Part shown: one piece after another, positions 4,878 to 44,545 of the stretch
Layout: each line of letters begins with the position of its first letter
Numbering within the stretch: the stretch's first letter is position 1
Assembly (NCBI GenBank): GCA_021234155.1
Contig: JAJEKV010000022.1
Coordinates: 3,573,370 to 3,637,369 of the forward strand
Source of the DNA: Isoetes taiwanensis
Lineage: Eukaryota; Streptophyta; Lycopodiopsida; Isoetales; Isoetaceae
DNA: 64,000 nt
Reading direction: 5' to 3'
The notes under the pieces: generated by a model
Databases searched by the model: none
The model's input: the letters and a program-made list of their open reading frames with translations, nothing else
What the model was told of the DNA's origin: nothing
Made by a program: the position numbers and the translations under genes

Positions 4878-6404
4878 TGTGACCCCCTGTCACCTTTTTG
4901 GCCATTACTCTCTTCTCCGGATGAACTAGAGGATGTGCCACCCAATTCGGAAACTAGACTCCGAGCCGGTTCCAACGAATAAAGGTCGCTGCAATCCGAC
5001 CTCTGGTTGCCGAGATATGTCCAACTGAAGTTTCGGTTCTATTTATAGACCTATCTGTGACTTTAGCCTTTTTTTAGCATGCAGTTGCCATTTTCTCAAA
5101 ATATCTCCTTGCCTTTAATTAGATTATATGACTTATCATATGGATATTATCTATGGCCTTTTTGTGCAAAATAGTCTGCCGCTTTTGCTTGATCATTGAT
5201 TCCCTTGATGTCTCTCCAACCAATGGTTCTTGACCCCATCCTAGATATCACAACCTTGCCATAGTTCCACAACTTTGCCATATTTTGCCATGCCCCCATA
5301 ACCCTAGCGCCGTGGACCACTCCCCCGTGCTATGATACAGACTATGACTCCATATCAGTAACCCCACTTTTTACGTTTTTCGTTGAGATTAGGTCCCTTT
5401 ATGTTGTTTCAATAGTTTCAACTGTTTAAAGCTCTTAGGAGGTGCATTTTGTTATATGCTAGTAAGTTGAAGAGTTTTTGTTGATTGATGGATGCAAATG
5501 TTTCCGTCTCTAACATTGGATTTCCACAGCCATTGATATTCAAGGATCTGGAGCATTGGACCCAGATTCATAGTGGCCTTTTTCCAATGATTGCATGAGC
5601 GGGTTCTTCAACATTTCAAGTTTTGGATTTAGGCATCTACCATATTGATCTCACGCCCCGGAGGTTCACCTATATTGAACTCCTTTTTACATGGCTTATG
5701 CTCACTGCTTTGCAATTATTTTTAAGCGAGCCTTGAGTTTTTTCTTGTATGTTGCGAGGTCTTGGAGCCCACATTGATCACATCAATTCAAATTGCCAAT
5801 TCTATTCCGGGGATCATTAGTTGCCCCACATAAACTGTTATAGAAAGCAAGTCCATTTCATAAAATGCTTTTGTGTTGTGCATTTGCTCCATGAAATGTA
5901 TTGTGTTATTAGGCATTATTGTTTTGTGGCGGTTAAGGCATGGCGTCGAATGAATCATTTTCACGTAAGGCATCGATCCTTAGTTCCTATTTGCTCTGGG
6001 GAATAAATTACTAATCGTTCTTATTAGCGTAATGACTTTAGCTAAACTTGCTCGATATTAATCCCAAAACTTTCTGTGGTTTAGCTAAACTCTATACATT
6101 TTTCCTCTCATACTTTCTAGCGTTTAGCTAAACTAACCCAAACATCATCCCAAAAATTTCTATGGTGTGGCCAACAGAAAATATTAAACCAAATTACTAT
6201 ACTTTTTTTTCAATATATTCCACTTATTTTAGTCATTTTCTTTGTGAAAACATTCTAAAATAATGCTAACTAGTAAAGTCTAGGACTCAAATTAATTCAT
6301 AATGCTAGAAACTAAACCACCAGTCATATATTTCATATAAACTAGAATGATGTTAGCTAAACTAGCCCGAAATTCATTCTAAAAGTTTCTATGGTTTAGC
6401 TAAA
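4878..6404. repeat. Array unit 0, left half (interrupted)
   Basis: Matches the first ~1.52 kb of the 3-kb unit. Positions 4878-5365 are the LTR-like block (TG...CA, with a polypurine-like tract next to it on the minus strand). The rest is noncoding, with several GTTTAGCTAAAC palindromes. The unit stops inside one of them and resumes at 21172, so a 14.77-kb element inserted here. Adding both halves gives about 3.03 kb, the same as the intact units. Confidence 0.9.
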
Positions 6405-6435
6405 AACCATCATTCAATTAAATTGGGTTTATGTC
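6405..6435. repeat. Left terminal inverted repeat
   Basis: 31 bp, inverted copy of 21141-21171 with mismatches at positions 10 and 24. The flanking AAA at 6402-6404 is the target duplication. Confidence 0.92.
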
Positions 6436-6604
6436 TTAATTTTGGGACAAATTTCATATTGCATGTTTTTAGTAGCATATTCAAATTCACACATTTCACC
6501 TCAAAATTATGAAAACGTAATATCATGTTATTTACAAAATAGTCAATATTTCACAATATAGCACCATATCATAAAAACGTGATAACAAAAATTTACATAG
6601 TTAT

Positions 6605-7060
6605 TCAACTTTCTTCAAGCACCCCCAATGATATCATAGCCTTCTTCCTGACATCCTGAGGTATTGTAATTCTCGCATTTCTAGCTGGAATAGTGTTTGG
6701 AGTCCATGAGTACAAAACACTTTCATAGTCTAGCCAAAGATCAGGATCACTCGGATTTCTCCTCCATCTCTTTGTCCAACAATCTGAGTACCTTTCTTTA
6801 TCCGATACGTTGGTCAACTGATGCACTGGACACCACCATTCCACCCGCACATGGTTGAAGTTAATATTACCTTCTTCTTTGCAAATATCAGAGATAGTGA
6901 ACCCCAACCACACTGGATATGTATCTAAATCTGATGGCTTTACTACCACAAATTGGTGGCATTCCAAGTCAGTGGAAGGTTCATAAGCATCCATGCCTAG
7001 AAACTTTGGCCTATTGTTCTTAGGACCAACATAGTGTTTGTCAGAAGGAGGGAGGAGCAT
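6605..7060 (-). CDS. C-terminal module of the DUF7869-like protein
   Basis: A clean 151-codon frame starting about 170 bp inside the left TIR. Visible: FVVVKPSDLDTYPVWLG, then VRVEWWCPV and WLDYESVLYSW, which look like a small beta-rich domain seen downstream of DUF7869-type cores. That relation is from memory and unverified. It is probably the last part of the protein whose core lies at 7183-8330, separated by frame breaks. It ends with ordinary residues and shows no signal peptide or membrane segment. Confidence 0.55.
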   Translation of the reverse strand: MLLPPSDKHYVGPKNNRPKFLGMDAYEPSTDLECHQFVVVKPSDLDTYPVWLGFTISDICKEEGNINFNHVRVEWWCPVHQLTNVSDKERYSDCWTKRWRRNPSDPDLWLDYESVLYSWTPNTIPARNARITIPQDVRKKAMISLGVLEES

Positions 7061-7182
7061 ATTGCTTGAATGCTACTTAAAGTGTCATCAAAATCCTCGG
7101 CACTGCTAAGGTCTTCCACCTAGTCTTAGGCAACCACCCTTCTTTCAATTCATCCGAGGATGTGTCTATCTCCCCAAGCGGG

Positions 7183-8330
7183 TTAATCACCTTCTTCCAA
7201 AGAAGCCACCAAAGCACGGTTGGTGTCATCTGGATTGGTTTGCCAATGCTTTATATAGTCTTGGATTCCTTCCTTAGTCAATCCCAATTGCTTCACTTCT
7301 TCAGTAGGTTTTAAAGCTTTTGGTTGACCTAGAGGTATCATAGGCTTGCCATTCTCATCTCTACGCCATATTTCCTCCCCTCCTCTCCACTCATCCTCTG
7401 AAGGTCTCATCTTCCATTGGAAGATTGGAATCCCATCTCTCACCCAAAAAGTGAACTGCAGAGGCCTGGAATGACCTTCAAGATCCAATGTATAACCATC
7501 CACAAAGCTCTTCCAATCGGGCACTTCTTCTATGAGAGAAGCTATAGGGTTTGGAGTAGTGCATTCATGCAAGATTTCCATTAGCCTAGGAAAGTTGGTC
7601 ACTGTTTGCTGCTTCAGTATACAACTATATTTGCCAAATAATGCATCCACATCCTCATGGGTATGCCCGGGCATAAGAAACCCTAAATTAACTCTTTCAA
7701 ATATCCCCACAGCTGTTAAGTAGGATAGGAAAGAAAACATCCACCTGTTCTTATTTTGGCCAAAGACAATTATCAAGTTGCAAGAGAAACCTTTTGGGTA
7801 GATCTTGAGGTTTAGCACGTGAAGTTGAAGCTCCAACATGTTCATTAGACCCATGCTTCCTAAACCTTGCCTTGCTGAACTTTTCAATATTGTTAGGGTT
7901 TCCATCTAACAATGCTCTATGTAGTGCCTGGCTAGCTGTAAGGTCCTGGAGGTGACCATTGTATCCATTTTCATAGTTTCTCAAACACCTCATGATACTC
8001 CCAATATGAAAATCGGACCATCACTCCACAACTCCAAACTAAAATGGCCATAGTAGGTTTGATTACGCCCATGCAAGATTGCCCCGATCATTGAGATCTC
8101 AGTAAAGGGTATGATCTTCCACATGACTTTGGTATGTACTTGAATTGTGGAAGACAAGTCTTTTGTTGGTCCATCTTGTCATGTATAATACATAAATAGT
8201 TATTGGGTTCCAATGCGGATAAAGTCCTCCACATCCAATAACATGATCTACATGATAGTTGGTCAGTCATATGGTCCTTCATATGCTCCCTTATCCTAGC
8301 CCTTTGACTAGGTTGCACAGGTCTTATCAA
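7183..8330 (-). pseudogene. DUF7869-like core, possible DDE transposase of the element
   Basis: Read on the minus strand across three overlapping frames (8088-8330, 7751-7993, 7183-7905). Motifs in order: YLCIIHDKMDQQKTCLPQF at about 8150-8215, LLQLDN at about 7767-7790, GIFERVNLGFLMPGHTHEDVDALF at about 7640-7715. The Asp, LDN and GHTHED triad is characteristic of DUF7869 proteins, a multicopy family in mosses, oomycetes and some animals, and could supply metal-binding acids. Position next to the TIR makes it the best candidate for the mobility enzyme. At least two frame breaks separate the motifs; one lies right after the LDN motif. These may be decay or base-calling error. Confidence 0.65.
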
Positions 8331-8754
8331 GAGTCTCCTTCAACTTAGCACATAAATTGCACTTTGCAAAGTTGTTTGAAGTTGCTATGGTGACATGATT
8401 GAAATGCTTCTTCCATAACCTACTAAAGCTAGGTTGGGATATTGGAAGAATTCCCAATTCTCGAAGTAGGGAATTCACTTCTTCCAAAATACTCTTTTGA
8501 GTACAATGTGATGGCAACCTTTTCTCAACAACTGCTCTTCCCTTTTCATCCCTTTTGCTTTTGTGTGGCATAGACTCTGCATTGAAATCAATATATTTTT
8601 CAAATATCTCCCTGGCAGCCAGGGTCCTAGCTGTTGGTCTCAACAAACCATTATTTCCATGTAAAGCAATCCTGTTCCCCTCTGCCTGTTTTTTTTGCCA
8701 ATTATGCCATGAAGAAGTTGAAATTGCATGGATACTCACGCCATGCTTTTGCAC
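8308..8754 (-). pseudogene. Middle part of DUF7869-like protein, helical and CxxC
   Basis: A 148-codon frame continuous in sense with the core. It has a tryptophan-rich start (SSWHNWQKK), a basic central part and a FAKCNLCAKL CxxC motif near the end, a probable metal-binding pair just before the first acidic motif. It overlaps the downstream frame by about 20 bp, consistent with a single frame shift in one original protein. Confidence 0.5.
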
Positions 8755-9562
8755 ATATCCATTTGCCTAGCAAAGGGTATCTTTTTTGTTTGGGTTTCTT
8801 TCATCTTGAAGTGCATGCTCAAGATTGTGTACATGTAGGTCCTCCTCTCATCAACAGTGTACTCTTGAAAAGTGGCTCTTGCTTCCACCAATTGTTCTAT
8901 TGTGAAGAATTGCATACAATCACTCCAACAACAATCTGAGCCCCTAACCTTCACCATTGTCTCACGTTTAGTGTCACTAATCAACTTGGCTCTTTTGCTA
9001 GGATAATGTCTGGCAACTGATACTTCTCCCCTTTTGCCTAGGTTTAGAGTTCCAACCGCCAATGGATCAATATCAAGACAATCATTGTCCCCAACAACCT
9101 CAGCTCTCGGAAAAATATAATCCTCCACAAATTGAACACTACTTATAGGCCATGCCATGATGCAAGGAACCTCCAATTGCTTGACACAACCAAAACATTC
9201 CTTGCCACCCAAACCTTTACCTTTCCAGTTGTCTTCCAACATCGAAATTGCAATACCAATATTGTCTTCCCTAGCCTTTCATCATTAATAAACTTTGACG
9301 GGATCTCGCTAGCACAATGACTCCTTGGCCTACTATTTCCTTGTTGCACTTGTGCATGATTCTCACCTTCTTTGTTCCTCCATTGCACCCTACTATAGAG
9401 GACTAATTGTTTTTCTTCAACATTCTTGCTAGGAGTTGGTTTTTCATTGATATTGCTCTTTTCACCATCTTGAGTTGAGGGGCACCATTGACCTAGGCAA
9501 ATTGCACCCTTTTTAGTCAATGAGTAAGAAAAATTATTACACCATAAGATAAAAAAGTACAT
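8736..9562 (-). pseudogene. N-terminal part of DUF7869-like protein
   Basis: Two overlapping minus frames (9143-9562 and 8736-9242). The upstream one is polar and unstructured-looking, with SRVQWRNKEGENHAQVQQG. The downstream one has GKECFGCVK and DCCWSDC cysteine pairs, possibly zinc-binding. No start codon can be chosen with confidence. The frames are joined by one shift near 9145-9240. Confidence 0.4.
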
Positions 9563-9840
9563 TACATTTATGGAATATGTAGAGGTAAATCAAATTTTTT
9601 AAAAGCAAGAAATTCCTTGGAAATAGGTTTAATATAATAATAACAATGGGTGTAAACGAAATCATTTAAAACAAGAATTTTCATGGCAACAACAAGGAAA
9701 TGACATTTATATAAATATATCCAAATTTTAATTATCGAAAAATTTGGATATATGATTCGAAAAAGACATATAACTAATAGGCGTGAGAATTTATTATCCA
9801 TAATAATATACCCTAGATAATATAGCAAGGGAATTTAAAT
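9563..9840. other. AT-rich intergenic stretch
   Basis: No coding signal. Very AT-rich; separates the minus-strand gene from the plus-strand promoter that follows. Confidence 0.5.
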
Positions 9841-9842
9841 GC

Positions 9843-9925
9843 GCTGGCGTGTTATTTGAGGCAATAAATTATTCACGCTAATTTCTAATTAACCCTATAT
9901 AAATCCGGTTCACGCTCTCAAGACC
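9843..9925 (+). promoter_or_regulatory. TATA promoter 1, upstream of acidic ORF
   Basis: Contains GGCGTG, then ATTCACG, then TATATAAA at 9896-9903 followed by CACGCTCTCAA. The same ordered elements with nearly the same spacing recur at 11050-11130, 1.2 kb downstream. The order conserved between paralogous promoters suggests upstream site, TATA box and initiator region. The TATA box lies about 60 bp before the ATG at 9958. Confidence 0.6.
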
Positions 9926-9957
9926 ATTCTGTCCCAATTTTTTTTTTTTCGCCCGCC

Positions 9958-10389
9958 ATGAAGCGTTCAGCCTCGGTATTTCGAACTTCATGAAGAACCC
10001 GAGGTCTCGTCAAAGAGACGTCGGGTTGAAGAACCCTCTCTTTCCCCCTCATAGATTTTCTTGCCCAATTCTCCTCGATTACGATTCGAGAGGATGATCT
10101 TGATTTTGACATGGAAGAGGAGGAGTTGAGCTCCTCTGATTCCTCTGATTCTGAAGAGGAGGAAGAGGAGGAAGAGGAGGAGTTGGAGGAAGAGGAGGAG
10201 ATGTCCTCCCAAGAGCATGAAACCGCTCTGCTTCAGGGTTGGCTTGACCCTGAAACAGAGAATGAAATCTCTGAAGAAGAGGAGGAGGAGGAAGAGGAGG
10301 AGGAGGGGGAGGAAGAGGATGAGGAGGAAGGTCGAGAATTCGACCAGTTTTTAGAATGGCTGAGAGATGAGCCAGGTTTGCATGTCTGA
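9958..10389 (+). CDS. Acidic low-complexity protein, frame broken near start
   Basis: The clear part is 92 codons from Met at 10111, mostly Glu and Asp with a few Ser runs, ending in FLEWLRDEPGLHV and a stop. Upstream, the first ATG after the TATA box (9958) opens MKRSASVF; removing one base near 9980 would continue into a stretch with SSKRRRVEEP, a plausible nuclear localisation signal, ending at a stop at 10051. The frame of the acidic part is open from about 10030. One protein with a basic nuclear signal and an acidic tail, such as a histone-binding or transcription factor-like protein, is plausible. An intron or frame breaks would be needed. Not recognised by family. Confidence 0.4.
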
Positions 10390-11040
10390 TTTTTTTTTTT
10401 CACCTTTCTTTCTTTTCTAACACCTTTCTTCCTTCTTTGTTGCAGACGTGGAAGATCAATGATGCAGATCCCGGGCGGCCCCTTTTTTTTTTTTTTTGGT
10501 TGCTTACAGAAGCTTTGGACACGCCACGGGCATTTTTTCCTGTAATTTTGTGAAAAGCCTTGGGCATCGTACATTCTCCTCTTATGAATGAAATCAAACA
10601 GTTTTCATCATAAAATTTTCTTCAAGCGGTGTTCTTGAACGACTTTTCTCGTACATAAAATTATTTGAATTAAATCCAACTGCTTTTTCCAATTATTTTG
10701 TCTCCAAGTCTGTTATCTCTAAAATTTTGTATCTGCAAATTTTGTCTCAACAAAGTCTCGGGAACACTATAAATCAAGCACATGAGAAATCTCTGATTCG
10801 TCACAGTAACCATAGGAAATTTTCCTATACGACCTAAAACAATTCCCCAACCTTACAAGTCATTTTTTAGCCTTCATAATTTTGCCTTTAAAATCATTTT
10901 TAATGTAGCCTATATAAAATTTCTAAATTCTATTTTTTTCAATGCAATAAATGGAATAAAATGTCGTGGAGAATTTATTGCATGAAATGCAATATTCTCC
11001 ATATATACCATATACATGTCATGTCTCAAGGAAGACCGTG
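10390..11040. other. Intergenic, AT-rich with T-runs
   Basis: No coding frame supported. It holds T-runs at 10389-10400 and 10482-10498, and the 3' region of the acidic ORF. Confidence 0.4.
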
Positions 11041-11049
11041 ACGCCAAAG

Positions 11050-11130
11050 CGTGTTAATTCAAGCAATCAATTATTCACGATAACTTTTTTCTAATTGTGC
11101 CTATATAAATCCATTTTACGCTCTCAAAGT
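11050..11130 (+). promoter_or_regulatory. TATA promoter 2, paralogue of promoter 1
   Basis: Carries AAAGCGTGTTA, CAATCAATTATTCACG, TATATAAA at 11102-11109 and ACGCTCTCAAAG, in the same order as promoter 1. It is followed at 11210 by a spliceosomal intron, so a transcript likely starts near 11130. Confidence 0.6.
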
Positions 11131-11209
11131 TCCTACATTTTCTTCCTTCCTTCATACGATTTGTCGGTTGCGCTTCTGCTGTGTTTGGATCCGCCGTCCC
11201 GAAATCTTG

Positions 11210-11291
11210 GTGAGTAGATTTATATTCATCAATGTTAGATGTTTGGTTTCGGCAATTCCTAACTTACTAAAAGACTCGCCTTTTGTTCCAG
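11210..11291 (+). other. Predicted 82-bp intron in a 5' leader
   Basis: GTGAGTAG donor after CTTG and TTTTGTTCCAG acceptor, both close to consensus. It lies about 100 bp after the TATA box, so it is probably a leader intron of the transcript driven by promoter 2. Confidence 0.45.
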
Positions 11292-11471
11292 AAAGCACCA
11301 GAAGTGCAGGAAATCGGAGACTTCGTAATTAAAACCAAAAGCAGAGAGGACTAAGGTCTCATGAATCGAAAAAGCCTCGGAATTAAAACCACAAGCATAG
11401 TCCTCCGTTCTTCGAATCCTTCCAGCCTCAGAACTCAAGGTTAGTTTTCATTTAGTTTAAGTTGCATCTCA

Positions 11472-11597
11472 ATGGCAGGTTTAATCCAAGAAGACAAGCT
11501 TTTGCATTTGCTCGAGGCAGAGGAAGCAGATGATGTTTATGAAAACCGAATAGTTTTTATAAACTTCATCCGCTTTTTGTTTCGAGTAAATTCTTGA
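11472..11597 (+). CDS. Small ORF, 41 residues, downstream of promoter 2
   Basis: ATG within AATGGCAGG. The product begins MAGLIQEDKLLHLLEAEEAD, an acidic amphipathic-looking helix. It could be the start of a longer spliced or broken protein. Not recognised. Confidence 0.3.
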   Translation: MAGLIQEDKLLHLLEAEEADDVYENRIVFINFIRFLFRVNS

Positions 11598-11757
11598 GTT
11601 TCTCTTCCTGAATTAATCATGCTATTGCATGCAAGTTTCTATTATGAATAAGTGTAGTAGAAAGCATTAGAAAAATCTGAAAGATAATATTTGAAACACG
11701 CTAAGCGTGTTTTATGGTAACCTTTAGCCTTCAACATGAATACTGATGCTGGCGTGC

Positions 11758-11876
11758 CGAGGGAGGGAAAAAAACTGTCAGATAGATAAGTAAAATAGAT
11801 AAAGGCCGTGCAATTATTTACAGTGGCCTTTATCTATTTACTTATCTATCCTATGTGTTTTTTTTCTCCTCCCTCG
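11758..11876. repeat. Long imperfect hairpin
   Basis: Left arm 11758-11807, loop 11808-11824, right arm 11825-11876. Both arms carry CGAGGGAGG, an A/T run, and GATAGATAAGTA..ATAGATAAAGGCC, with few mismatches. It is long enough for a stable stem in RNA or a cruciform in DNA. Confidence 0.8.
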
Positions 11877-12064
11877 AATGAATGCACGGCGGTATAGTTT
11901 TTTTCCTATATAGCGGTTTTACACCGGCGTGCAAACAATTGTATCCCTACTTTCAACTTTTTACGCTTAAACACGGGCGTGTCTCTTAGTTTCTAAGTTT
12001 ATAAATAAAGAAATATAACACGCCAGGCGTGAATACCGATACTCGGGCCACTTCCTATTGATAG

Positions 12065-12642
12065 ATGCCAGGTTACATTAATCACCCGGTTGGTGGACGA
12101 AGATGGATTGGAATTACATTTGGGCCAGCAATCACACGCCCAGCTCAGTTCCGGCTCCAATCTCGGTCCGTTGAACCGCAAATGAGCACCAGTTCGGGCT
12201 GGAGCACCGGCCTTGCAACCCCCGGAGTACTTGGATCAAGTAATGATGATGGCGCAGAGCGCAGTGGCAATGATAGATCCGGGCTCGGGGCCCTTTGCAA
12301 TCGCATCGGAGGGTGGCCCTCTTATCTAATCACCGAGAATGCAAGATATGCATTGATCGAGAGTGAATCTCGTGATCCGTCATTTCGAGATTCAAAATGA
12401 GGAGCTGCGTTTCTTAGTGGTTAGCCTCTATGCCGGATGCCCCAACACGAACCACTACCACAAAGCGGTATAATGATGCAATGGAGATGGCTCAACCAAT
12501 GGAACCACTACCGCAGCGCTATAATCGATGCATTGGAGGTTCAACAGAGCGGCGGAGCGGGAGCAGGAGCGAGGAGGTGGAGGTGGAGCAAGTGGGGGTA
12601 GTGGAGCTAGAGCCCCGGTGTTTTGCCGGGTTTTACCGTTAA
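12065..12642 (+). CDS. Unrecognised ORFs, glycine-rich/basic
   Basis: A 111-codon frame (12065-12400, starting MPGYINHPVGGRRW) is followed by a 70-codon frame (12430-12642). Base composition is more GC-rich and codon-like than the flanks. Between them another frame reads HFEIQNEELRFLV, helix-like. Probably parts of one protein with frame breaks. No family recognised. A CACGCCAGGCGTG palindrome lies just upstream at 12019-12031. Confidence 0.3.
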
Positions 12643-13370
12643 GAATTCACTATGCCCCCGCAATGGAAATGGGAGATCGATAGCCCGCCTACTCAAAGAC
12701 CGGGCTTGAAACAAAGAGTCCGGGATTTTGTCCGGTTTATCCAGTTTATCCAGATTATATACAATTGTAATCTTTTTCCAATGAATACAACAAATTTTGT
12801 CTACTTCTATATTTCTACAATGTAATACATGTTACATACCTTTTTAAGCGGTTTCTTGGCCATGCAACAAATGTTCCAACACTTTCTCCAACCGTATCCC
12901 CACCGGGGTGTCTGCGAGGTAAAGCTTCATCCATAGCAATAGCGATTAATCATCAGAAACTCGGACATACTTATCCCCGAAAGGAATTCCATGACGGTTT
13001 CATACCGGATCGATGGAGTCGATCTTGCATAATCCTACTTTCCTTTTCTCGATTTGTAGTTAACATGAAACATTCATCTTCTATTAATCGCAGAAAATTG
13101 CTATTCAGACACCTACTATTGGAAATTAATGTTCAAGCTATTGGAATGAGATGAGTACCGTAATTCAGAGCCATTCTTGAGAAGCTGATTTGAGTCTCCG
13201 GTTGATTTGAGAAGTCTGAAGGCGCTTATGGAAACTCTGGCGGTCGGGAAAAATTCAATTAGAAGAAAGATTAGGTTAACTACGTTTTTAGGGATAAATT
13301 TGGCGGGATACTTTTGGGTAGATTGGTTTTAAAAACTTAATGAAAGAAAGTCATGGACGGGTCTTCGCCA
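12643..13370. other. Noncoding stretch in the large element
   Basis: I see no supported gene. Base composition is ordinary. Confidence 0.4.
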
Positions 13371-13377
13371 TTATTAT

Positions 13378-13602
13378 TTGTATGTGTCAAGAATATTTGA
13401 AACTGCATTTTGTGTTTTCTTGAAATTCAAATTTCTATTTCTCGTGCATGTAGAAAAAGCTATTTCTTCGAAAGCAGCTCGAAAGGCCAGATCCGCGTTT
13501 AACCGACTCGCATTACTAGGCTTACTCGAGAGATGTCTTCTAAAGCTTAATCGAGGTCGAAGGACGGGGCAGCAGAGGAAGCGGTGGAAGAGGAATCTCT
13601 AA
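13378..13602 (+). CDS. Short unrecognised ORF, probably a fragment
   Basis: A 74-codon frame starting MYVSRIFETAF; a hydrophobic start (FCVFLKFKFLFLVHV) could be a membrane or signal segment, followed by a basic tail. An alternative frame at 13550-13635 reads acidic (DGAAEEAVEEESLNPLF). Weak. Confidence 0.2.
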   Translation: MYVSRIFETAFCVFLKFKFLFLVHVEKAISSKAARKARSAFNRLALLGLLERCLLKLNRGRRTGQQRKRWKRNL

Positions 13603-14269
13603 ACCCGCTCTTCTCAAGTTTCAGAGGACGTTGATCAGAATACACTGTAATACACGTAACCCTATTCAAGGTATTTAATTTGCCCACGTAATACACACTT
13701 TGTGGGAGAGTATTATGCTTGCATGAATTTGAGATATTTCCTTGCCTCTCGATAATATGCTTTGCATGAGTTTGAGTTATTATGCTTTGCATGAATTTTA
13801 AGTATTAACATCAGTTAATGCTCGATTGTCCGCTCAGAGAACATAATTTTGCTCGTTTTTATATATAGAATATAGCGGTGTTAGACAGCTTGGAGATAGC
13901 AATGTTCAATGAGGTTAAATAGTGTGAAATATGGATTCATGAAGGGTATGTAGCTTAAAATGTGGATGCAAAATAATTTAGTTTCAAATTAACGCATAGC
14001 ATGGTCAATAATAGAGATACCAACACGCCAAGCGTGATTTGTACTAATTTAGGTTTAAAATGCACGCCAAGCGTGATCTCTTGTTCTCAAAAAGTACTCT
14101 AAAAAGTGCTCATCTTCATTTGCAAGGCTCAAGAGGAAAAACCCCTACTAATTCGGGTTCTAATCCCGCCAAGAAAGCAAGGGCGACGACCCGTGATGCG
14201 CATTACCATATGATCTCACCTTAGATGATGAAGGGCCGATTCTTATAGCAACCAATCGACCCCCGCCTC

Positions 14270-14830
14270 GAAGAGGAAATGGACGAGGGTGCCGAGTGGT
14301 ACGCTGACCTTGCCAAGACAAATGGCAAGCTCGACTTAACTCTCTTCTCGAGGAAAAAGGAAGCGCATAAGATGGCCAAACAAGGGATCCTAATCTCTTG
14401 TGAGGAAGAGGATGACACCAACCGCAAATTGCTCTTGGAGATTACATGAAGCGTAAGAAAGATCCGCCGGACTTACTACTTTGTAGAGCTACCGCGATAC
14501 AAGGATACGCTCATGAAGACAGATGTGAAGCGGTGAGACATGTTTTAAGTATGGTTGGCCAACCAATGTAGCAGTTACGCCAATATCTATTTGCCAAGGG
14601 GTTACAGCTATGCGTAGAGGCATGTTCACTAAACCGACACCAAGTCACTATTTGCAGCAAGCTAGGGAATTAGTGACTTGAAAGCTTCTAAAAGGGTCCT
14701 AGATCTAGGGAAGAATGTTCAACCGCAGTTTGTCGAAGGCATGGAGGCTTCGCTTTTTGAGAATGAACAGACAGTGGCGCAGCCTAGAGGCCATGAACAA
14801 GCTGAATAAGTACGCTGACCATTATCCATT
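14270..14830 (+). pseudogene. Unrecognised protein, frame-broken segment 1
   Basis: Several coding-like plus-strand frames follow each other. 14268-14449 includes EEEMDEGAEWYADLAKTNG and FSRKKEAHKMAKQG. 14451-14540 includes RRTYYFVELPRYKDTLMK. 14691-14808 includes VLDLGKNVQPQFVEGMEASL. Switching frame at each junction gives continuous polar, charged sequence, which suggests one protein interrupted by small indels. Not recognised. Confidence 0.4.
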
Positions 14831-15270
14831 GGGTCTTAAGGAAACTTTTGCGATCCATGTGAAGTCCCTCATCCGTTCACCAAGCTCCATTTATGTTAGC
14901 AGGAGATATGATCCAGCACATGCCATGGAGATTGTTCAGAGCATGATTAGTAATCCAGGTCAAATGCCTATGCCCGGCCGGATGTGCTACCTTGGGATAT
15001 GATCTCAACAAGCTCGGCCGGTGGGATCTAACGCCCGTGAGCTATTATCAAGTGATGATATTAAATATGTCATCATCGACGGCAAAGATTCCGCTGAGGC
15101 ACAAAAGGCCATCATCAGCAGTGTGCGTAACAAACAGCCAAAAAGTGTTCTACAATCACTATGCGTATAGGAGGTGTCAGATCTTGGATGCCAATACTTC
15201 ACCCGCAGATTTGGTCGAGATTAGTGCAACTTTGAATGAAATGGGGAAGACATTTCTATACAAAAGGTAA
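14715..15270 (+). pseudogene. Unrecognised protein, frame-broken segment 2
   Basis: Overlapping frames 14715-15002 and 14992-15270. The first includes LNKYADHYPLGLKETFAIHV and the second ILDANTSPADLVEISATLNE. Helical, soluble, no membrane segment. It ends just before the palindrome cluster at 15296. Probably the same gene as segment 1. No family recognised. Confidence 0.35.
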
Positions 15271-15295
15271 TCAACCTGGTTTCATAAATTGTATT

Positions 15296-15513
15296 CACGC
15301 CAGCGTGCTTTTCAAATCAAACCAATTCACGCCCAGCGTTTTTGAAATCATCGATTCACGCCAGCGGTTTTCAAGTCAACCAATTGATTTGAAAACACGC
15401 CGGGCGCGGAATTCATTGATTTGAAAACACGCCGGCGCGGAATTGGTTTGATTTGAAAGCACGCCCGGGCGCGGAATTGCATTAGTAACTTTTATTCATT
15501 TCACGCCAGCGTG
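15296..15513. repeat. Phased cluster of CACGCC palindromic sites
   Basis: Seven sites at 15296, 15328, 15357, 15396, 15428, 15460 and 15502, at spacings of 32, 29, 39, 32, 32 and 42 bp. Each has CACGCC followed by AGCG, GGCGCGG or similar. Between them AAACCAATT and AATTGGTTT blocks are arranged in opposite orientation around about 15381, giving overall dyad symmetry. The layout looks like a multimer protein-binding array such as a replication-initiator, silencer or transposase subterminal array. Confidence 0.7.
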
Positions 15514-15562
15514 ATTTTTCTCTTCATCAATTCTATTCAAATCGCGCCCGTGTTTCTATTCT

Positions 15563-16217
15563 ATGATATCGATTCAATGTCCGTACTATTGCAGTCCATA
15601 CGTTGAACAACCGCGCCGCCTGGCCAACAATGGGTGGAATATGGCTGCCCATTGCCCACCGCATTGCATGGTCAAAGTCCGAGGCATTCTGCCGCTGGAG
15701 CGGACTCGCCGCAGCATAATTATACGTGAGAAGAAGAAGACCGCAAGAAAATCAAAGAAAAAAGGTGGTGATGACATTGCAGCATCCTTTCAAAAGCTCA
15801 TCCAAAGAAAGTCGGGACCAACAGACTTCAGATAAGATTGTGTTTTGTAAGGAGGCAAGATGGCTCAAGTGGAATGAATTCGGGACGCTTTATGCACAAG
15901 GGAAGCTGCCGATACTATGGGTAGGGTGCCTCCCCGTTGATGTAAGCATCTTTGACTTGAATGTGACAGAGATGAGAAAGACTCGTGGGCTGGGACGATG
16001 CTTTGAGACCATTTGGGTTTTAGACCGCTGCTTAAAGAAGGAAGTCTTATACAAGAAGGGTGCTTTCACCAAGGATAGGATGTCCTTCGTTGAGTGTCGC
16101 AATCATGTAAAGGATGTATACGACAATGAAGTCACTGTAGGAGCCGAGTTACAAAGGCTATCGGGGGATGTGGCATTATCCGAAATTGGATTGTCGGACA
16201 AATACAACGCCGAATGA
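15563..16217 (+). pseudogene. Unrecognised protein, frame-broken segment 3
   Basis: 15563-15835 ends in a basic stretch (KKKTARKSKKKGG) and is followed, one frame over, by 15726-16217, whose longest clean part includes EARWLKWNEFGTLYAQGKL, WVGCLPVDVSIFDLNVTEM and FVECRNHVKDVYDNEV. Soluble, with a lysine-rich N-terminus that could be nuclear. Not recognised. The frame continues after a shift into 16168 onward. Confidence 0.45.
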
Positions 16218-16896
16218 TGACATCAAGAAGTTTGTATTCTGGTCAAAGGACTTCCTAAAGAATTGGAAGGCTAAAAATACAAAACATAAGGAGACTCTAC
16301 CCCTAAGGTACCGGGCTGAGTTGAGAAGAAAAGTGGCCCTTGTGAAGAAGATTCTTTGGAGAAGACGACATCGTCCAAGATTCAGTCTCCATTGGGTACA
16401 AAGGTCTCTTGCCGATTCAACTTCCGGCCTTAAAAATATATCACTCTTTGTGTTGGACAGCCAGGGTGGGAGAGGAGATATGGGCATGAACCGTAGGACT
16501 ACAAGAGCTTCTTTACCAAATGATAGGATTGACAACCGAGAGGTCCTTCACTATTGTCATCGTTTGTCCTTCGTGAGTCACATCTGCAAGATGCACCATC
16601 CGGCCGCTCATGATCCGAGTGCCTCAAAGTTATTAGGGAGGGATGCCTAATATATGATGTTAAGGATAATGAGTCTGCTAACGCGGGCGGAAGATGGCAC
16701 ATGTGATCTTTATTATGATATCCATGCCGCCGACGAGGAATATGATATTGCTAAGGCCAAGGGTGACAATAGCGGTGCATGGGAATGTTTTCTTCTAGAT
16801 GATCCGGACTTAAGAACTATATTCTTTCATACGGATCAGGATCAGTCGAATCGTGATGAGTCGAGGAAGAGGATGAGGATCGGGACCCCCTCCTAA
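16168..16896 (+). pseudogene. Unrecognised protein, frame-broken segment 4
   Basis: 16200-16370 reads DDIKKFVFWSKDFLKNWK and LRRKVALVKKILW. The alternative frame from about 16360 reads GYKGLLPIQLPALKIYHSL then WTARVGEEIW, which looks more protein-like than the longer frame at the same place. 16654-16896 includes CDLYYDIHAADEEYDIAKAK and LLDDPDLRTIFFHTDQDQ, ending in a basic KRMRIG. Consistent with one gene carrying several frame breaks. Not recognised. Confidence 0.4.
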
Positions 16897-16951
16897 GTGG
16901 GGAAATCAAGCACGAAGCTACAAACTAAGGAGAAGGCCCCCTTAAATAAAA

Positions 16952-17334
16952 ATGGATTTCCCCGCCTATATGGCTGCTTACCTCGCCGAGGCATTTGCTC
17001 CAATTGATACAACCCGCTTGGAGCTTCATGTTGAGGTTATATTGCCCGAGAGGCTCTTATGGGTGCAAGAAGATGTCACCGCTTTGTGAGTGATGAGCAG
17101 GCCAAAGACTTTCTTGAACCATTCCTCATGCATGTGCTTGCCAAGTCTCCTAAAGGCCCTTATGGCAACCTGAAATCATCAGCAATCAAAAGTCTCGTAG
17201 ACTTGTCCAATTCGAAGTGGACGTTGTTCCCGGAGAGGGAACTAGTAATCAGAGTACCGATAAGGAAAGCAAAGAATGAACAAATAGTCGCTAAACCTGG
17301 TTGCTCAAAGCAATCGCGGATGGGCTTAACTTAG
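16952..17334 (+). pseudogene. Unrecognised protein, frame-broken segment 5
   Basis: Met at 16952 opens MDFPAYMAAYLAEAFAPIDT, which stops at 17087. One frame over, 17059-17334 includes DEQAKDFLEPFLMHVLAK and SSAIKSLVDLSNSKWTLFPE. It reads like a small helical domain. Not recognised. It precedes the FCP1-like ORF on the same strand. Confidence 0.4.
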
Positions 17335-17820
17335 GGAATATCCTTGCCCACATTGCGGGTGATGCAAGCAACAATAGAGTAGATTCACGGGTTAACAATG
17401 AAATAATTGACAGGAAACCAAAAATGAAGGCAACGAAGGCGGCTCTAGTGATTCACATGTGTTTGCCAAATCAATAGTAAAATAATGTCGGGCCAGAAGG
17501 ACGCAATGAACTAATAGAAAATAACAATTCTAACAAATTTAAGTAGACTAAGATTAAGGGTGTATGAGGGGAGAATGACGATGATGACGGCAAAATAAAC
17601 GAAGATGATGGGTATGGCCTTGCCCACGAAATAGCGCCACGCTGCGTGATTTAATTTGTATTACCTTTGAATTAAATCGCCAAGCCGCGTTTTGATTATT
17701 TTTCGTTGTCAACTAAATCGCCGAGCCGATTTGGTTATGACTATTTCAAATCACGCTTTGGCGCGCGTTTGTATTGTTTGTGTTATCGTGATCTTGCTGA
17801 CCGGATACATGTTTGATGTT
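17335..17820. other. Intergenic with degenerate GCGTG/CACGC sites
   Basis: No gene. CACGCTGCGTG at 17638 and degenerate relatives at about 17680, 17715 and 17755 flank the start of the next gene. The layout resembles the cluster at 15.3 kb but with fewer sites. Confidence 0.45.
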
Positions 17821-17849
17821 TTGCCTTCCATTGCGTTTCTAAGAAGGTT

Positions 17850-18464
17850 GTGGTGTTCGACCTAAACGGAGTCCTTTGCAAGACTTTTCCAAAAAAAATA
17901 AAGTGGCTAGAGAACAGATTTCATCAGACACCTAAAGAGAATCAAACACCAAGTGGATCTATCCAAGGGCAAGACTTGAAGGAGATGCTAGACGAGTCAT
18001 TCAGGTTATTTCGAGTTGGTATTTGGTCATCCATGGAACTAAGGAACATCAAGAATACTTTGGAGGCACTGGGGGGAATGCATAGAAATCGGTTGACCCT
18101 TTGGGATCAGAACAAATGTGTGAAGTTCACTAATCCCAAGGATCCAACAGGCAAGCCTATCTTCATCAAACACTTGAGTAACATGATGGACGAACTTGGT
18201 ATCGAGAATAAGGATGATATAATCATAGTGGATGATGATGCTCTCAAATGCTTCTACAATCAAACACAGGCCCTGAATCCGCCATCTTACGATCCAAAAA
18301 ACTTTGGGACAGATGATTTTCTGGTGAAGTTTGTGTCTATTATGCATAATTTGGCTATGGGGATGACGGTGGGTGAAGTGTTAGATTCGTACCCAGAACT
18401 GGATAGAACGGCTGACATGGAACCACACCTTGTTAAATACGTGGAAAAACATGGATTGATCTGA
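17850..18464 (+). CDS. FCP1/NIF-like HAD phosphatase domain protein
   Basis: Open from about 17817. The first ATGs upstream are out of frame, so the start is unresolved and this may be a 3' exon. Visible HAD signatures: VVFDLNGVLC (the catalytic Asp is present; the usual second Asp is Asn, as in a DLNG subfamily of plant FCP1-like proteins), FRVGIWSSMELRNIKNTLEA (motif II region), LWDQNKCV, then IIIVDDDALKCFYN (motif III acids). FCP1 proteins dephosphorylate Ser of the RNA polymerase II C-terminal domain; whether this one is active with Asn is unknown. The stop TGA comes from the terminal TGA of the LTR element inserted at 18462. Across that element the original frame would have ended two codons later. 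Confidence 0.7.
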   Translation: MVFDLNGVLCKTFPKKIKWLENRFHQTPKENQTPSGSIQGQDLKEMLDESFRLFRVGIWSSMELRNIKNTLEALGGMHRNRLTLWDQNKCVKFTNPKDPTGKPIFIKHLSNMMDELGIENKDDIIIVDDDALKCFYNQTQALNPPSYDPKNFGTDDFLVKFVSIMHNLAMGMTVGEVLDSYPELDRTADMEPHLVKYVEKHGLI

Positions 18465-19290
18465 TACGTTTGAAGAAATCGCAGTGAGACAAGATCTCAG
18501 TTTATGGTCAATAGAAGCCGAAAATTGAGCAAAGAAGAACAGGATTCTATTACTTGAAGAATACAACCGGCTTTAAGCCTGGACAACTGATAGGAGCACA
18601 CCTCAAACCACCCAACCGGGCTCAGACACAAGAATTCGTTATCTTGCACAAGAATTCGTTATCTTGCTTGCAACAGAGATTCAGTAACCAAAGGCACGAG
18701 AAATCGTTATCTCGTCTTCTACAAAGATTCCTTGGCCTCAATATGCTTGCGCTGGCATCACTAAGGCTGAGTATCGCAGTATCTTAGGGCAAGAATAAGA
18801 GCTACGGTAAGGCTAGAGCCAAACAGTTCGAACAGAAGCGGAGGTATTTGGGACAGAGCTGGATTGTGTAAGAGGATCCGGTTATCATCCTTTATTTATA
18901 CAGATAGAAAGGCTGTCTTGAATCGGCCTTTTAGTTTCAGAAATAGATTACTGGAAATAGGCAAGAAGAATCAGATAAATCAATCATGGATATCTTTGGC
19001 AGGCCTTTTCTTAACTGTAAATAGATAGGAGCGGATAGCTATGAATGATTCGGCCATGATTAGCTTGGATTCGACCTTTTTTTCTAAGGCCCAAAGGATT
19101 CTGTGCTATTCCGGGTTCAGTTCCGGAAAGTCTGAGTGCCATTCAACGTACAAGCTCGGCCCCCGTTATCAGCCTCATACAACATTTAGGAAAATGTTAA
19201 GTTTGTTCCCTTTTAAATATTCCATATGTCCTTGCCCCTTGCCACGGAATCTCTGTTGCCTGAGCCACTCCCCCGAGCCGCTCCGTATCA
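18462..19290 (-). repeat. 3' LTR of the nested element
   Basis: About 829 bp, TG...CA, next to the polypurine-like tract at 19291-19306. It contains a short tandem repeat (ACAAGAATTCGTTATCTTGC at about 18628-18667, two copies). Confidence 0.55.
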
Positions 19291-19734
19291 GGTCCTTCCC
19301 TTCTTTCAGTCGATCGACCTCGATCGATCTAAAACCCTGAAAGAAATTCCATCAAAAACTCTTGTCATGAAAAGAGGTGTGTTTGGTCCTTCCCTTCTTA
19401 AGGCCAATCTCTTTTCCCTGGGAATGTTCTTTTTCTGATCCTCCAAGGCAGGGTCCGCACTTGGACAGAAAAATCTCCATGCTGATCCATCAAGTAGGCG
19501 TCCCTCACTTGAACAGTCATGGCATTCCCAGCCCTTTCTGATATTCCGAGTAGGTTCCCACCCCTACTCGGACAGAAAGTAAATTCCTTTCCAACAAGAA
19601 AGATAATTCCCTTCCGTTAGGAAGCAATAAAAATTTCACTTTATTCAAAAGAAAACACATACATTCGAATATTTATGCATATCCTACAAAAACTCAAACC
19701 AAACTAAGATAAATGACCGATATTATGACCGATA
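19291..19734 (-). other. Noncoding internal region of the nested element
   Basis: Lies between the gag stop and the 3' LTR. No coding frame. It contains the polypurine tract at its left end. Confidence 0.45.
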
Positions 19735-20215
19735 GTTAGTCGGCTTCTTTCAAACTCCCTGGCTGCAGCTTTTTCAGCAGCTTTGTCAGCTTTGTCAGCT
19801 TTGTCCGATGTTTCTGCAATAGTATGCATTAACGCTTTTCCTTTGTCCCCCTTGCTTTTGGGAATTTCAATTTCGGTTTGAGGCTTGTCTGTAGGTGTCT
19901 GTCTTTTTGGGCAAGAAGCTTTAAAGTGAGGTCCACCACATATGTAACAACCCCTTTCTGGTGCATTCGCCCGTTCCTGATTTGTACGTTGTTCCGTACT
20001 CCTGTTTCGGTTTCTTGAGTCTCTGCGATCATCATTGAATCGAACTCTTTTTGCTCCATTGCTGCTCGCCTTATCTGTGTCGCGCTTGCCATTATTCTCC
20101 TTGGGATACCCTTCCCATATATCATACTTTGCCCCCTTGGGATTAAATTTTCTTTCTGCAGCTTCGGCTTTTCGTACCGCTTCAATTGTTACGAATGCTC
20201 TAATCTTCCTGCAAA
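19735..20215 (-). pseudogene. Gag fragment with CCHC zinc knuckle (Ty3-type)
   Basis: Minus strand. The clean frame carries GCYICGGPHFKASCPKR, a CX2CX4HX4C knuckle in the style of plant Ty3/gypsy gag, followed by a lysine/threonine-rich tail and an alanine/lysine repeat (ADKADKAAEKAA). A one-base shift separates this from the upstream 118-codon frame. Capsid sequence is mostly missing. Confidence 0.65.
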
Positions 20216-20821
20216 TTCATCAACTAATTAGAAAGCAAAATACCACAGGGTACTCGTTTTACCACCCAACCGGACCAACTAGAAGAGATGTCACCAAGTC
20301 TAGCTACTCCGCAAGACAAGATCTCTCTAGCCACCAACCACTGGTGTTACATGAACTCCTTCTAATGATATGATCAAGCAAGGAACAAGAGAAGATACTA
20401 GAAGGTAAGGCTAGGCTCATCATCAACATAGGAAGAAGCAGATCTAGCTGTGCAGTCAACTCAGACCCCTATGCACCTTTCTGGGCATAACTTTCAAACC
20501 GTAAGGAATCTATGGACAACCAAGCCCAATCTGGAAACTAGACGTCAAGAGCTTTCCAACAAGGTAAGGATCGCCGATTTCTGAGTTGTGGTTGCGGAGA
20601 TATCACGTCTCAAAGTTGTCCTTTTATTTATAGGTAATAATACCTTTTTTGCCTTTTTGCTTCTAAATAAAGGTCAAGGTTTATTTTTAGCTCTCTCTTT
20701 GATAATAGCAAGGCTTAGACATACTGGATGACTTTCTTACTTGATCATATCAATAAATATTGTTCCATGCAAGGCCACTCCCCCGAGCACCATTATTAGT
20801 TATTAACCTTAAACCATATCA
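20216..20821 (-). repeat. Right LTR-like part of the nested element
   Basis: Contains CTTTCCAAC..GGTAAGG, TTGCGGAGATAT and TATTTATAGG in the same order as the LTR-like block of the array units (for example 22700-22860), so the two LTR families are related. It ends CCATATCA at the target duplication. No primer-binding site is visible between it and the gag frame. Confidence 0.45.
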
Positions 20822-20826
20822 TGATC

Positions 20827-21140
20827 CCTTAATGTTTTATTGGAATATATGATATTTTTGTATGATATATTTGTGCCATGTATCGATAATTTCGAGTCTA
20901 GAATTGCCTCGCAAATAATGCAATTTGTTATTATCAAACCTAATATTATCATCTATCGAGCAAGCAATATTTGTCTCATCTATGTTAGCAACTTGCTCTT
21001 CATTTCTGCATATTTCAATTCGCATATGAAAAGTCACACGTGAATCGCAACCTTATGTTATTTTTGAAGTCCAAAAAAAAAGATTAAAAAAAACAAAAAC
21101 CCCCTAGAAGACAATAGCAGGTTGGCGTGATTTTGGAGTT
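20827..21140. other. AT-rich subterminal region of the large element
   Basis: No coding frame supported. A GGCGTGATTTT half-palindrome lies at 21124, 17 bp inside the right TIR. Confidence 0.5.
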
Positions 21141-21171
21141 GACATAATCCCAATTTAATTGGATGATGGTT
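21141..21171. repeat. Right terminal inverted repeat
   Basis: 31 bp, inverted copy of 6405-6435 (29/31), followed by the AAA target duplication at 21172-21174. Confidence 0.92.
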
Positions 21172-22685
21172 AAACACTACAAAATTTCACACTCTTACTT
21201 TCTAGCATTTGGCTAAAGAGCTCCAGGGTTGGTGCAGTCCCGAAAAAAGTTAAGCTAAAACTATTATTTTTTCCCCAATTTTTTCCATTTACTTTAGCCA
21301 AATTTTTTTGAAAATGTGCTAAAAAATTGCCAAATAGCTAAGTTTAGCCCTTAAATTATTCCATGATTTGCTAGAGGTAAGTGCATTAGCTTTTTGACTG
21401 GGATAAGCTTGACATAAAAAGATCGTGCAGTTCACCTGACCAGAATGAATGGATCATTCCGAGTTTCAAGGATGGAACCTCCCAGTTGCAAATATTTGAG
21501 TTTCTTACATGTGAATTTTCTCGTTCTAACATAACATTCATATTATAAGGTTTCGGAGCATTGGGTAGATCCAAGCGGTGCTTTCTTTGCAATGGTTGCA
21601 TGAGCCACCATCATATGTCTTTTAAGGAGAGTGGCAAGATGATGAGTTCACATGTCGTAATCAATGCAGTCTAAGGCACCGCACCTTGCGTGCATTTCGC
21701 GTGAAAAGTTTGAGGGTATAAGATCAGCAAGTTGATCATAAGCTTCTCTCAAACTATCTCTTTGAAGCCTTCACTTGCTTCTTACAAATCTTTACATTGT
21801 CATATACTTGCACGAGTAGCCTCAATGTGGATGTATATTTGCCTAGACCAAGTCTGCAAATATGATCGTGGACTCCTTTTTATCCGTCCAACAGAGCTCG
21901 AAGATTGTCTAGGCCCCTCTCAAGGTACCCGTTCACAATTCCTTTTTGTGCAATCATTCGCCACTCTCAAGGGTCGTAGATCCGTAGTAGCTAGCTCATT
22001 TATATATATGTATCTTTACTACAAATCATCCAACAATATCCAGAAATGCAATAAAATAGCATTGATATACATTTGGCAATAAATGTAGCTTGTCACCCCG
22101 ATGCCCTAAACACTAGTGACAAATCATTGATTGGAAAAAAACAACAGTTTAGCCATGATTCAAAAGGTGTTCTTTTTTCTTATGTGAGCGTAATTCGACA
22201 TATAGAGCTTTATCACTTTTTACTGGGATGCGGGATTGTTCTTATTGTCCGCTCATGAGAGTCACTATATCAACGCATGATTCCACCGGCCGAACATAAT
22301 TTACTCGAAAAGCCTTGCAAGTTTATGACTTCGAAGCTAGTGTATCCGCTTTGAAAATGGACATTGCATGTTTATAGACAATTGAATGTTCAAACCGGAG
22401 AATTGTGCATACAGCACAAAAGCAGCCACTTGTTCACGCTTTACCTGCATTTTGTTTTATGCCAATTGTTTCATGCTGCTACATCAGAGTAAGAAAGCAT
22501 GGCACTTGAAGAGCAGAGAGAGGACATGCAGACACACGCCACAAAGCATTTGATTATGGCACATGAATCAGATTTTTGATTGAAGTGTTTCATCTAGCCA
22601 ACATCTTTACAGTCTTGATGGGAACGACTTCACATCTTCAATTCCAACCACATTCAATGCCAAACCTCCTTTTATAGCTTTGAGG
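21172..22685. repeat. Array unit 0, right half
   Basis: Resumes the interrupted unit; matches the second half of units 1 to 3. No gene. It contains a second copy-like block (about 21560-21600) resembling CTGGAGCATTGG...TTGCATGA from the first half, so the unit has internal duplication. Confidence 0.85.
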
Positions 22686-25600
22686 TGTGACCCCCTGTCA
22701 CCTTTTTGGCCATTACTCTCTTCTCCGGATGAACTAGAGGATGTGCCACCCCAATTCGGAAACTAGACTCCGGGCCGGTTCCAACGAATAAAGGTCGCTG
22801 CAATCCGACCTCTGGTTGCCGAGATATGTCCAACTGAAGTTTCGGTTCTATTTATAGACCTATCTGTGACTTTAGCCTTTTTTTAGCATGCAGTTGCCTT
22901 TTTCTCAAAATATCTCCTTGCCTTTAATTAGATTATATGACTTATCATATGGATATTATCTATGGCCTTTTTGTGCAAAATAGTCTGCCGCTTTTGCTTG
23001 ATCATTGATTCCCTTGATGTCTCTCCAACCAATGGTTCTTGACCCCATCCTAGATATCACAACCTTGCCATAGTTCCACAACTTTGCCATATTTTGCCAT
23101 GCCCCCATAACCCTAGCGCCGTGGACCACTCCCGTGCTATGATACGCACTATGACTCCATATCAAGAACCCCACCTTTTTCGTTTTTCGTTGAGATTCGG
23201 CCCTTTATGTTGTTTCAATAGTTTCAACTGCTTAAAGCTCTTAGGAGGTGCATTTTGTTATATGCTAGTAAGTTGAAGAGTTTTTGTTGATTGATGGATG
23301 CAAATGTTTCCGCCTCTAACATTGGATTTCCCACGACCATTGATATTCAAGGATCCGGAGCATTGGACCCGATTCATAGTGGCCTTTTTTCCAATGATTG
23401 CATGAACGGGTTCTTCAACATTTCAAGTTTTGGATTTAGGCATCTACCATATTGATCTACGCTCTGGAGGTTCACCTATATTGAACTCCTTTTTACATGG
23501 CTTATGCTCACCTGGCCGCAATTATTTTTAAGCGAGCCTTGAGTTTTTTATCAGATGTTATGAGGTCTTGGAGCCCACATTGATCACAGGGGATCATTAG
23601 TTGCCCCACATAAACTGTTATAGAAAGCAAGTCCATTTCATAAAATGCTTTTGTGTTGTGCATTTGCTCCATGAAATGTATTGTGTTATTAGGCATTATT
23701 GTTGTGGCGGTTAAAGCCGTAGCGCCGAATGAATCATTTTCTATGTAAGGCATCGATCCTTAGTTCCTATTTGCTACTGGGGAATAAATTACTAATCGTT
23801 CTTATTAGCCGTAATGACTTTAGCTAAACTTGCTCGATATTAATCCCAAAACTTTCTGTGGTTTAGCTAAACTCTATACATTTTTCCTCTCATACTTTCT
23901 AGCGTTTAGCTAAACTAACGCAAACATCATCCCAAAAATTTCTATGGTGTGGCCAACAGAAAATATTAAACCAAATTACTATACTTTTTTTTCAATATAT
24001 TCCACTTATTTTAGTCATTTTCTTTGTGAAAACATTCTAAAATAATGCTAACTAGTAAAGTCTAGGACTCAAATTAATTCATAATGCTAGAAACTAAACC
24101 ACCGGTCCATATATTTCATATAAACTAGAATGATGTTAGCTAAACTAGCCCGAAATTCATTCTAAAAGTTTCTATGGTTTAGCTAAACACTACAAAATTT
24201 CACACTCTTACTTTCTAGCATTTGGCTAAAGAGCTCCTGTGGTTGGTGCAGTCCAAAAAAAGTTAAGCTAAAACTATTATTTTTTCCCCAATTTTTTCCA
24301 TTTACTTTAGCCAAATTTTTTTGAAAATGTGCTAAAAAATTGCCAAATAGCTAAGTTTAGCCCTTAAATTATTCCATGATTTGCTAGAGGTAAGTGCATT
24401 AGCTTTTTGACTGGGATAAGCTTGACATAAAAACATCGTGCAGTTCACCTGACCAGAATGAATGGATCATTCCGAGTTTCAAGGATGGAACCTCCCAGTT
24501 GCAAATATTTGAGTTTCTTACATGTGAATTTTCTCGTTCTAACATAACATTCATATTATAAGGTTCTGGAGCATTGGGCGTAGATCCAAGCAGGCTTTCT
24601 TTGCAATGGTTGCATGAGCCAATCATCATATGTCTTTTAAGGAGAGTGGCAGTAGATGATGAGTTCACATGCTGTAATCAATGCAGTCTAAGGCACTGCA
24701 CCTTGCCAGGCATTTCGTGAAAAAGTTTGAGGGTATAAGATCAGCAAGTTGATCATAAGCTTCTCTCAAACTATCTCTTTGAAGCCTTCACTTGCTTCTT
24801 ACAAATCTTTACATTGTCATATACTTGCACGAGTAGCCTCAATGTGGATGTATATTTGCCTAGACCAAGTCTGCAAATATGATCGTGGACCTGTTTTTGC
24901 CAGATCCAACAGAGCTCGAAGATTGTCTAGGCCCCTCTCAAGGTACCCGTTCACAATTCCTTTTTGTGCAATCATTCGCCACTCTCAAGGTCTGTATCTG
25001 TAGTAGCTAGCTCATTTATATATATGTATCTTTACTACAAATCATCCAACAATATCCAGAAATGCAATAAAATAGCATTGATATACATTTGGCAATAAAT
25101 GTAGCTTGTCACCCCGATGCCCTAAACACTAGTGACAAATCATTGATTGAATAAAAACAACAGTTTAGCCATGATTCAAAAGGTGTTCTTTTTTCTTATG
25201 TGAGCAGAATTCGACATATAGAGCTTTATCACTTTTACGGATGCAGGATTGTTCTTATTGTTCGCTCATGAGAGTCACTATATCCACGATGATTCCATGG
25301 CGAACATAATTTACTCGAAAAAGCCTTGCAAGTTTATGACTTCGAAGCTAGTGTATATCGCTTGAAAATGGACATTGCATGTTTATAGACGATTGAATGT
25401 TCAAACCGGAGAATTGTGCATACAAAGACAAAAGCGACCACTTGTTCACGCTTTACCCCGCATTTTGTTTTATGCCAATTGTTTCATGCCGCTACATCGA
25501 GTAAGAAAGCATGGCACTTGAAGAGCGAGAGAGAGGACATGCGCACACGCCACAAAGCATTTGATTATGGCACATGAATCAGATTTTTGATTGAAGTGTT

Positions 25601-44540: not shown

Positions 44541-44545
44541 CACGA

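Follow-up and report, generated by a model that had tools for sequence, protein, structure and literature searches.

We describe a 14,767-bp insertion in a 64-kb stretch of the Isoetes taiwanensis genome (contig JAJEKV010000022.1, positions 3,573,370 to 3,637,369). This whole stretch is called the window here; positions are window coordinates, and the element means 6405-21171. The insertion is real and clean. It probably represents a single insertion of a large cut-and-paste transposon with terminal inverted repeats (TIRs), which would carry a putative DUF7869 transposase together with passenger or accessory genes.

The element lies inside the first of five repeat units of ~3 kb (4878-6404 plus 21172-22690, 22686-25702, 25698-28709, 28705-31714, and 37035-40057). 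It interrupts this unit between 6404 and 21172; the other four are intact at the same place. In all four the empty site TTTAGCTAAACACTAC is unbroken (near 24184, 27200, 30202, and 38536), and the two flanks of the element, ~95-96% identical to the sister units, join onto it without a gap. The boundaries are as follows.

6402..6404, no strand: left target duplication AAA (TAAA possible, 6401-6404), from comparison with the four empty sites
6405..6435, + strand: left TIR, 31 bp, 29/31 against the right end
21141..21171, − strand: right TIR, 31 bp, 29/31 against the left end
21172..21174, no strand: right target duplication AAA, from comparison with the empty sites

The element starts 5′ with AACCATCATTCAATTAAATTGGGTTTATGTC, its other end is an inverted copy matching at 29 of 31 positions, and the termini read AACCATCAT. 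Neither end is found elsewhere in the window at up to three mismatches, and none of 100 dinucleotide shuffles contained two such end matches. Agreement with the empty site runs through the AAA at 6404 on the left and reaches back to the T at 21171 on the right, so that the flanks overlap by up to four bases (TAAA). Two readings of the duplication follow: AAA, in which case the ends are symmetrical (AACC..GGTT), or TAAA, which leaves them one base off. Together, the ends, the duplication and the sister empty sites are the signature of a single transposition into a pre-existing repeat unit. A preliminary description of this DNA had proposed a TIR element with cargo at 6402-21174, and the matching ends and visible empty sites bear this out. 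Its span included both AAA copies, which are outside the element proper, and its AAA duplication fits, with the correction that TAAA is also possible.

The gene that adjoins the left end (− strand, 6.6-9.3 kb) encodes a DUF7869 protein (Pfam PF25273, E 1.3e-27, 97.1 bits against a cut-off of 26), as had been proposed for a protein beside one TIR; no function has yet been assigned to this family. Four parts of it can be outlined.

6605..7072, − strand: C-terminal part, BAH-like domain (profile of the BAH-like region of relatives, E 4.3e-42; fold of the relative P0004)
7183..7905, − strand: DUF7869 core, second half of the RNase H-like catalytic region, with GHTHEDVD (PF25273, E 1.3e-27; profile E 2.4e-32)
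8091..8339, − strand: first half of the RNase H-like catalytic region, with IIHDKMDQ (profile E 6.7e-19; tblastn of relatives)
8308..9278, − strand: N-terminal half, weakly matching the helical (helix-turn-helix-like) region of relatives (profile E 1.1e-4; frame-tolerant alignment to P0003)

Three acidic motifs are kept among DUF7869 relatives. The predicted model of a full-length relative, P0004, combines an RNase H/DDE-type core with a BAH-like chromatin-reader domain. The solved folds nearest to this model are Mos1 transposase and retroviral integrases. Mos1 is the best match, over residues 299-741 of the model, which would presumably take in the N-terminal helix-turn-helix part of Mos1. 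The single-sequence fold of P0001 (pLDDT 34) was not used. Sequence searches of the PDB gave nothing useful, and weak matches to ACC deaminase (E 0.71) and ORC6 (E 0.084) were disregarded. Six-frame Pfam scans (E up to 0.1, on frame-broken sequence) returned DUF7869 and no other transposase family. Fold, motifs and location point to DUF7869 as the likely DDE transposase of the element.

Relatives of DUF7869 are also encoded in two contigs filed as Bacteroidetes metagenome-assembled genomes (L001, 42%, and L002, 37%, in the best segments). Since the relevant ORFs (open reading frames) are split (L002:1927-3684 and L001:1700-3213) and one neighboring ORF looks gag-like by eye, both contigs are probably eukaryotic contamination. 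The literature searched contained no mention of DUF7869 or DUF8039; nor, going by the titles and first lines of the abstracts of the papers listed, did it describe an element of this kind.

Transposition could proceed as follows. The helical, helix-turn-helix-like region of DUF7869 would bind the 31-bp ends, and the RNase H-like core would cut them and attach them to the target, whose two strands would be offset by 3-4 bases. Gap repair would then leave AAA or TAAA. The complex would be kept on chromatin by the BAH-like domain at the C-terminus. On the strand opposite DUF7869 the element appears to carry several passenger or accessory genes, and the repeated promoter and palindrome sites suggest common control of this cargo. 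Should the present copy be unable to make transposase, an enzyme from another copy may have moved it.

Beyond DUF7869, five coding or possibly coding tracts stand out.

10030..10389, + strand: acidic, Glu/Asp-rich ORF, from the ORF list
12770..13600, + strand: unrecognised tract, possibly coding and frame-broken (3 frame changes, against 7.9 in shuffles; P 0.005)
15560..17480, + strand: frame-broken coding tract of an unrecognised protein (8 frame changes vs. 18.6 in shuffles, 0/400 as low)
17817..18464, + strand: unbroken FCP1/NIF-like phosphatase-type ORF, 215 aa (Pfam NIF, E 7.9e-10)
19704..20216, − strand: ORF with a CCHC knuckle, seen by eye (Pfam eIF3g, 26.6 bits against a cut-off of 24.4, E 7.8e-6)

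The presence of an acidic ORF and of an FCP1/NIF-like ORF agrees with what had been read earlier. Openness was assessed in 10 regions, each against 400 shuffles, by the number of frame changes needed for read-through; the regions were picked by eye after the ORFs had been seen and the test therefore favors openness. For DUF7869 (− strand), 15560-17480, the NIF ORF and the 19704-20216 ORF, none of the 400 shuffles was as open as the region itself. Openness was weaker for 12770-13600, 18500-19700 (P 0.02) and 14100-15270 (P 0.043). This test could not tell the acidic ORF, 11440-11700 or 12060-12640 from shuffles.

The NIF protein matches P0034 at 52% over 142 aa. P0034 was the sole match in a search for close relatives, and recent capture of a conserved host NIF gene is not indicated. 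Catalytic FCP1-type enzymes have DxDx as the first motif. Here DLNGV stands in its place, which makes the activity of the protein uncertain. For the 19704-20216 ORF, a piece of a retrotransposon gag is as plausible as the eIF3g label of Pfam; the six-frame Pfam scans showed no reverse transcriptase. The 12770-13600 tract had no Pfam match in those scans. For 15560-17480, no family exceeded the cut-off in Pfam, NCBIfam (two pieces) or PHROGs (three pieces), and one piece searched against the PDB gave nothing useful. Sub-cut-off Pfam and NCBIfam matches (DUF433, NT5C, CDC45, HAD_IIID1, PQQ_CXXCW and others) were disregarded. Scans of the window for tRNA and Rfam families were empty.

Two kinds of putative control sequence accompany the cargo, the paired promoters and dispersed palindromes of the preliminary description.

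9847..9921, + strand: promoter-like module 1 with TATATAA, before the acidic ORF (blocks shared with 11049-11127)
11049..11127, + strand: promoter-like module 2 with TATATAA (blocks shared with 9847-9921)
11697..17648, no strand: seven strict palindromes CACGC-N1-5-GCGTG (at 11697, 12019, 14024, 14063, 15296, 15502, and 17638)

The two modules have blocks of 38 and 40 nt in common (84% and 85% identity). The strict palindrome occurs seven times in the element, mostly between the coding tracts as outlined, not once in the remaining 49 kb of the window, and not once in 100 first-order Markov sequences of element length. The N3 form alone has four matches against a mean of 0.01 in 100 shuffles. 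We infer that the palindrome serves a single DNA-binding protein as a control site throughout the element. Also inside the element, at 11762-11869, is a 33-nt inverted repeat (76% complementary, arms 42 nt apart), possibly a small nested foldback element.

Not all of these genes are intact as assembled. Frame changes, which the preliminary description did not mention, interrupt DUF7869 and several other tracts; the NIF and 19704-20216 ORFs are unbroken. The DUF7869 gene has at least five frameshifts and no in-frame stop in its best-compared part: frame-tolerant alignment to P0001 gave five frameshifts in 457 residues and no stop codon, and alignment to P0003 (36% identity) gave 12 frameshifts in 898 aligned residues and again no stop, inserted codons being uncounted. 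The missing stops weakly favor assembly errors, since decay normally adds stops as well as indels. Across the five repeat units there are 51 singleton indel events, 38 of them one base long (10/38 in runs of at least three equal bases), and 112 singleton substitutions. In the fourth unit the 11 singleton indel events all fall within ~700 columns, and such clustering of short indels in some copies suggests patchy assembly quality. Because neighboring repeat copies also differ by one-base indels, decay and assembly error are alike compatible with the present data on DUF7869. Nearby, at 2840-4774, is a 644-codon ORF with no Pfam family above cut-off, which by eye resembles a further transposon gene associated with the repeat array. 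Its second copy (~35005-36928) is frame-broken, matching only in several frames.

These breaks bear on whether the present copy is a dead, non-autonomous passenger, with genes decayed or captured in pieces and moved in trans by an intact relative, a reading to which we give not quite an even chance. The frame breaks in DUF7869 and the other tracts speak for it, as do the isolated CCHC ORF near the right end and the fact that genes are broken despite flanks so similar to the sister units. But the DUF7869 alignments hold no in-frame stop (0/457 codons against P0001, 0/898 against P0003), and assembly error could explain the breaks, given that one-base indels are common among the repeat copies and one copy of the 644-codon ORF is frame-shifted. 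The transposase frame being broken as assembled, the earlier suggestion of a self-contained system cannot be upheld. It is highly improbable that a transposase-type integrase here serves a virus-like element or an integrated viral genome. Several one-strand tracts, two copies of one promoter module and dispersed palindromes would suit such an origin, but DUF7869, the NIF protein and the ORF at 15.7-16.2 kb are without confirmed relatives in viral contigs, and the element ends are absent from those contigs. PHROGs gave no family for 10/10 pieces, and the six-frame Pfam scans gave no capsid, DNA polymerase or packaging domain. The virus-like label of the preliminary description is not supported by the searches made. 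A fold match in BFVD to a Xylella phage protein (E 2.7e-4, TM 0.07/0.16) was too poor for use. Polinton/Maverick and virus-like elements carry DNA polymerase and capsid genes; six-frame scans of the element showed neither as a Pfam domain, and its duplication is at most 4 bp. The Polinton duplication is 6 bp (excerpt of PMC10045372). Finally, joining of an unrelated contig into the repeat array is barely credible as the source of the insertion. Residual assembly errors in the window are possible and the element sits in a tandem array. Misassembly is common in such arrays, but a chimera does not yield 29/31 inverted ends at both exact joints, a short direct duplication and a flawless empty site all at once.

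Granted a transposon with a DUF7869 transposase, it could belong to a named superfamily with 3-4-bp duplications (Academ, Zator, PIF/Harbinger, or the CACTA/Plavaka group), DUF7869 being merely Pfam's label for its transposase; we consider this less likely than not. Duplications of this length are compatible with several named groups: 3 bp in Zator (excerpt of PMC10045372), 3 bp in canonical Harbinger and 2-3 bp in PlavakaB, whose ends are CATCA..TGATG (excerpt of PMC12730594), and 3 bp in some CACTA/EnSpm and Plavaka families. The termini given above place CATCA three bases in. But the six-frame Pfam scans found DUF7869 as the sole transposase family, albeit on frame-broken sequence and with no Academ profile compared. 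In EnSpm, Mirage, Chapaev and Transib the second D is followed by shared C(2)C and H(3-4)H motifs (excerpt of PMC12730594), whereas in P0004 just 38 residues separate LQLD from the E of HED, and no C(2)C was seen by eye in A1 between the second and third acidic motifs.

CACTA/EnSpm elements are defined by CACTA ends, unlike AACCATCAT, and the same scans of frame-broken sequence showed no CACTA-group transposase domain. In Mutator elements (MULEs) of plants the duplication is ~9 bp, against at most 4 bp here, and no MULE domain was found in six frames. That the element fits neither CACTA nor Mutator is thus upheld, in that Pfam places the transposase candidate with neither. Mariner elements are ~1-2 kb long and without a BAH-like domain. 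Retroviral integrases, IstA and TnsB, which have other ends and other element structures, were not among the PDB sequence-search matches. Academ has 3-4-bp duplications, as the element may. It is the main open alternative to a new superfamily, set beside the element by description alone; curated bivalve Academ elements have a mean length of 5,565 bp (excerpt of PMC10294476). Tc1/mariner (Mos1) and other DDE/D cut-and-paste transposons share inverted ends and a short target duplication with the element, but Tc1/mariner duplications are 2-bp TA (excerpt of PMC10045372). Pack-MULEs likewise hold foreign-looking gene pieces between inverted ends but are for the most part 1-2 kb long and mobilized in trans (excerpt of PMC6431247), whereas the element holds a transposase-type gene. 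Land plants have six TIR superfamilies, among them hAT, Sola, MULE, PIF-Harbinger and CACTA, and DUF7869 is not named in the excerpt of that account (PMC9033089). Repbase has 24 eukaryotic superfamilies (excerpt of PMC12730594); the novelty of the element was judged with Pfam profiles rather than against these.

Elsewhere in the window, a 1.8-kb direct duplication (32247-34059 and 42733-44545, 99.3%) has inverted pieces at 51431-51916. BLAST aligns its copies with nine mismatches and four one-base gaps, and global alignment with 17 substitutions and no gap. Long one-strand purine-rich stretches with degenerate short tandem repeats occupy 53000-56000 and 60880-61700 (GC skew up to 0.55, AT skew up to 0.64).

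In closing, we suggest tentatively that DUF7869 proteins could serve as the transposases of large eukaryotic transposons that form an undescribed superfamily, with a BAH-like (in some, Tudor-like) domain, 3-4-bp duplications, and accessory genes, including FCP1/NIF-type genes, under one palindromic control site. Such a superfamily is possible and, because one copy alone has been seen, unproven. With its empty sites lying in the same window, this copy is well suited as a type locus. If the suggestion is true, DUF7869 would gain a function, that of a DDE transposase fused to chromatin-reader domains, and DUF7869 genes would become recognizable as mobile-element genes. It would also provide a naturally occurring transposase whose choice of targets may depend on reading histone marks.

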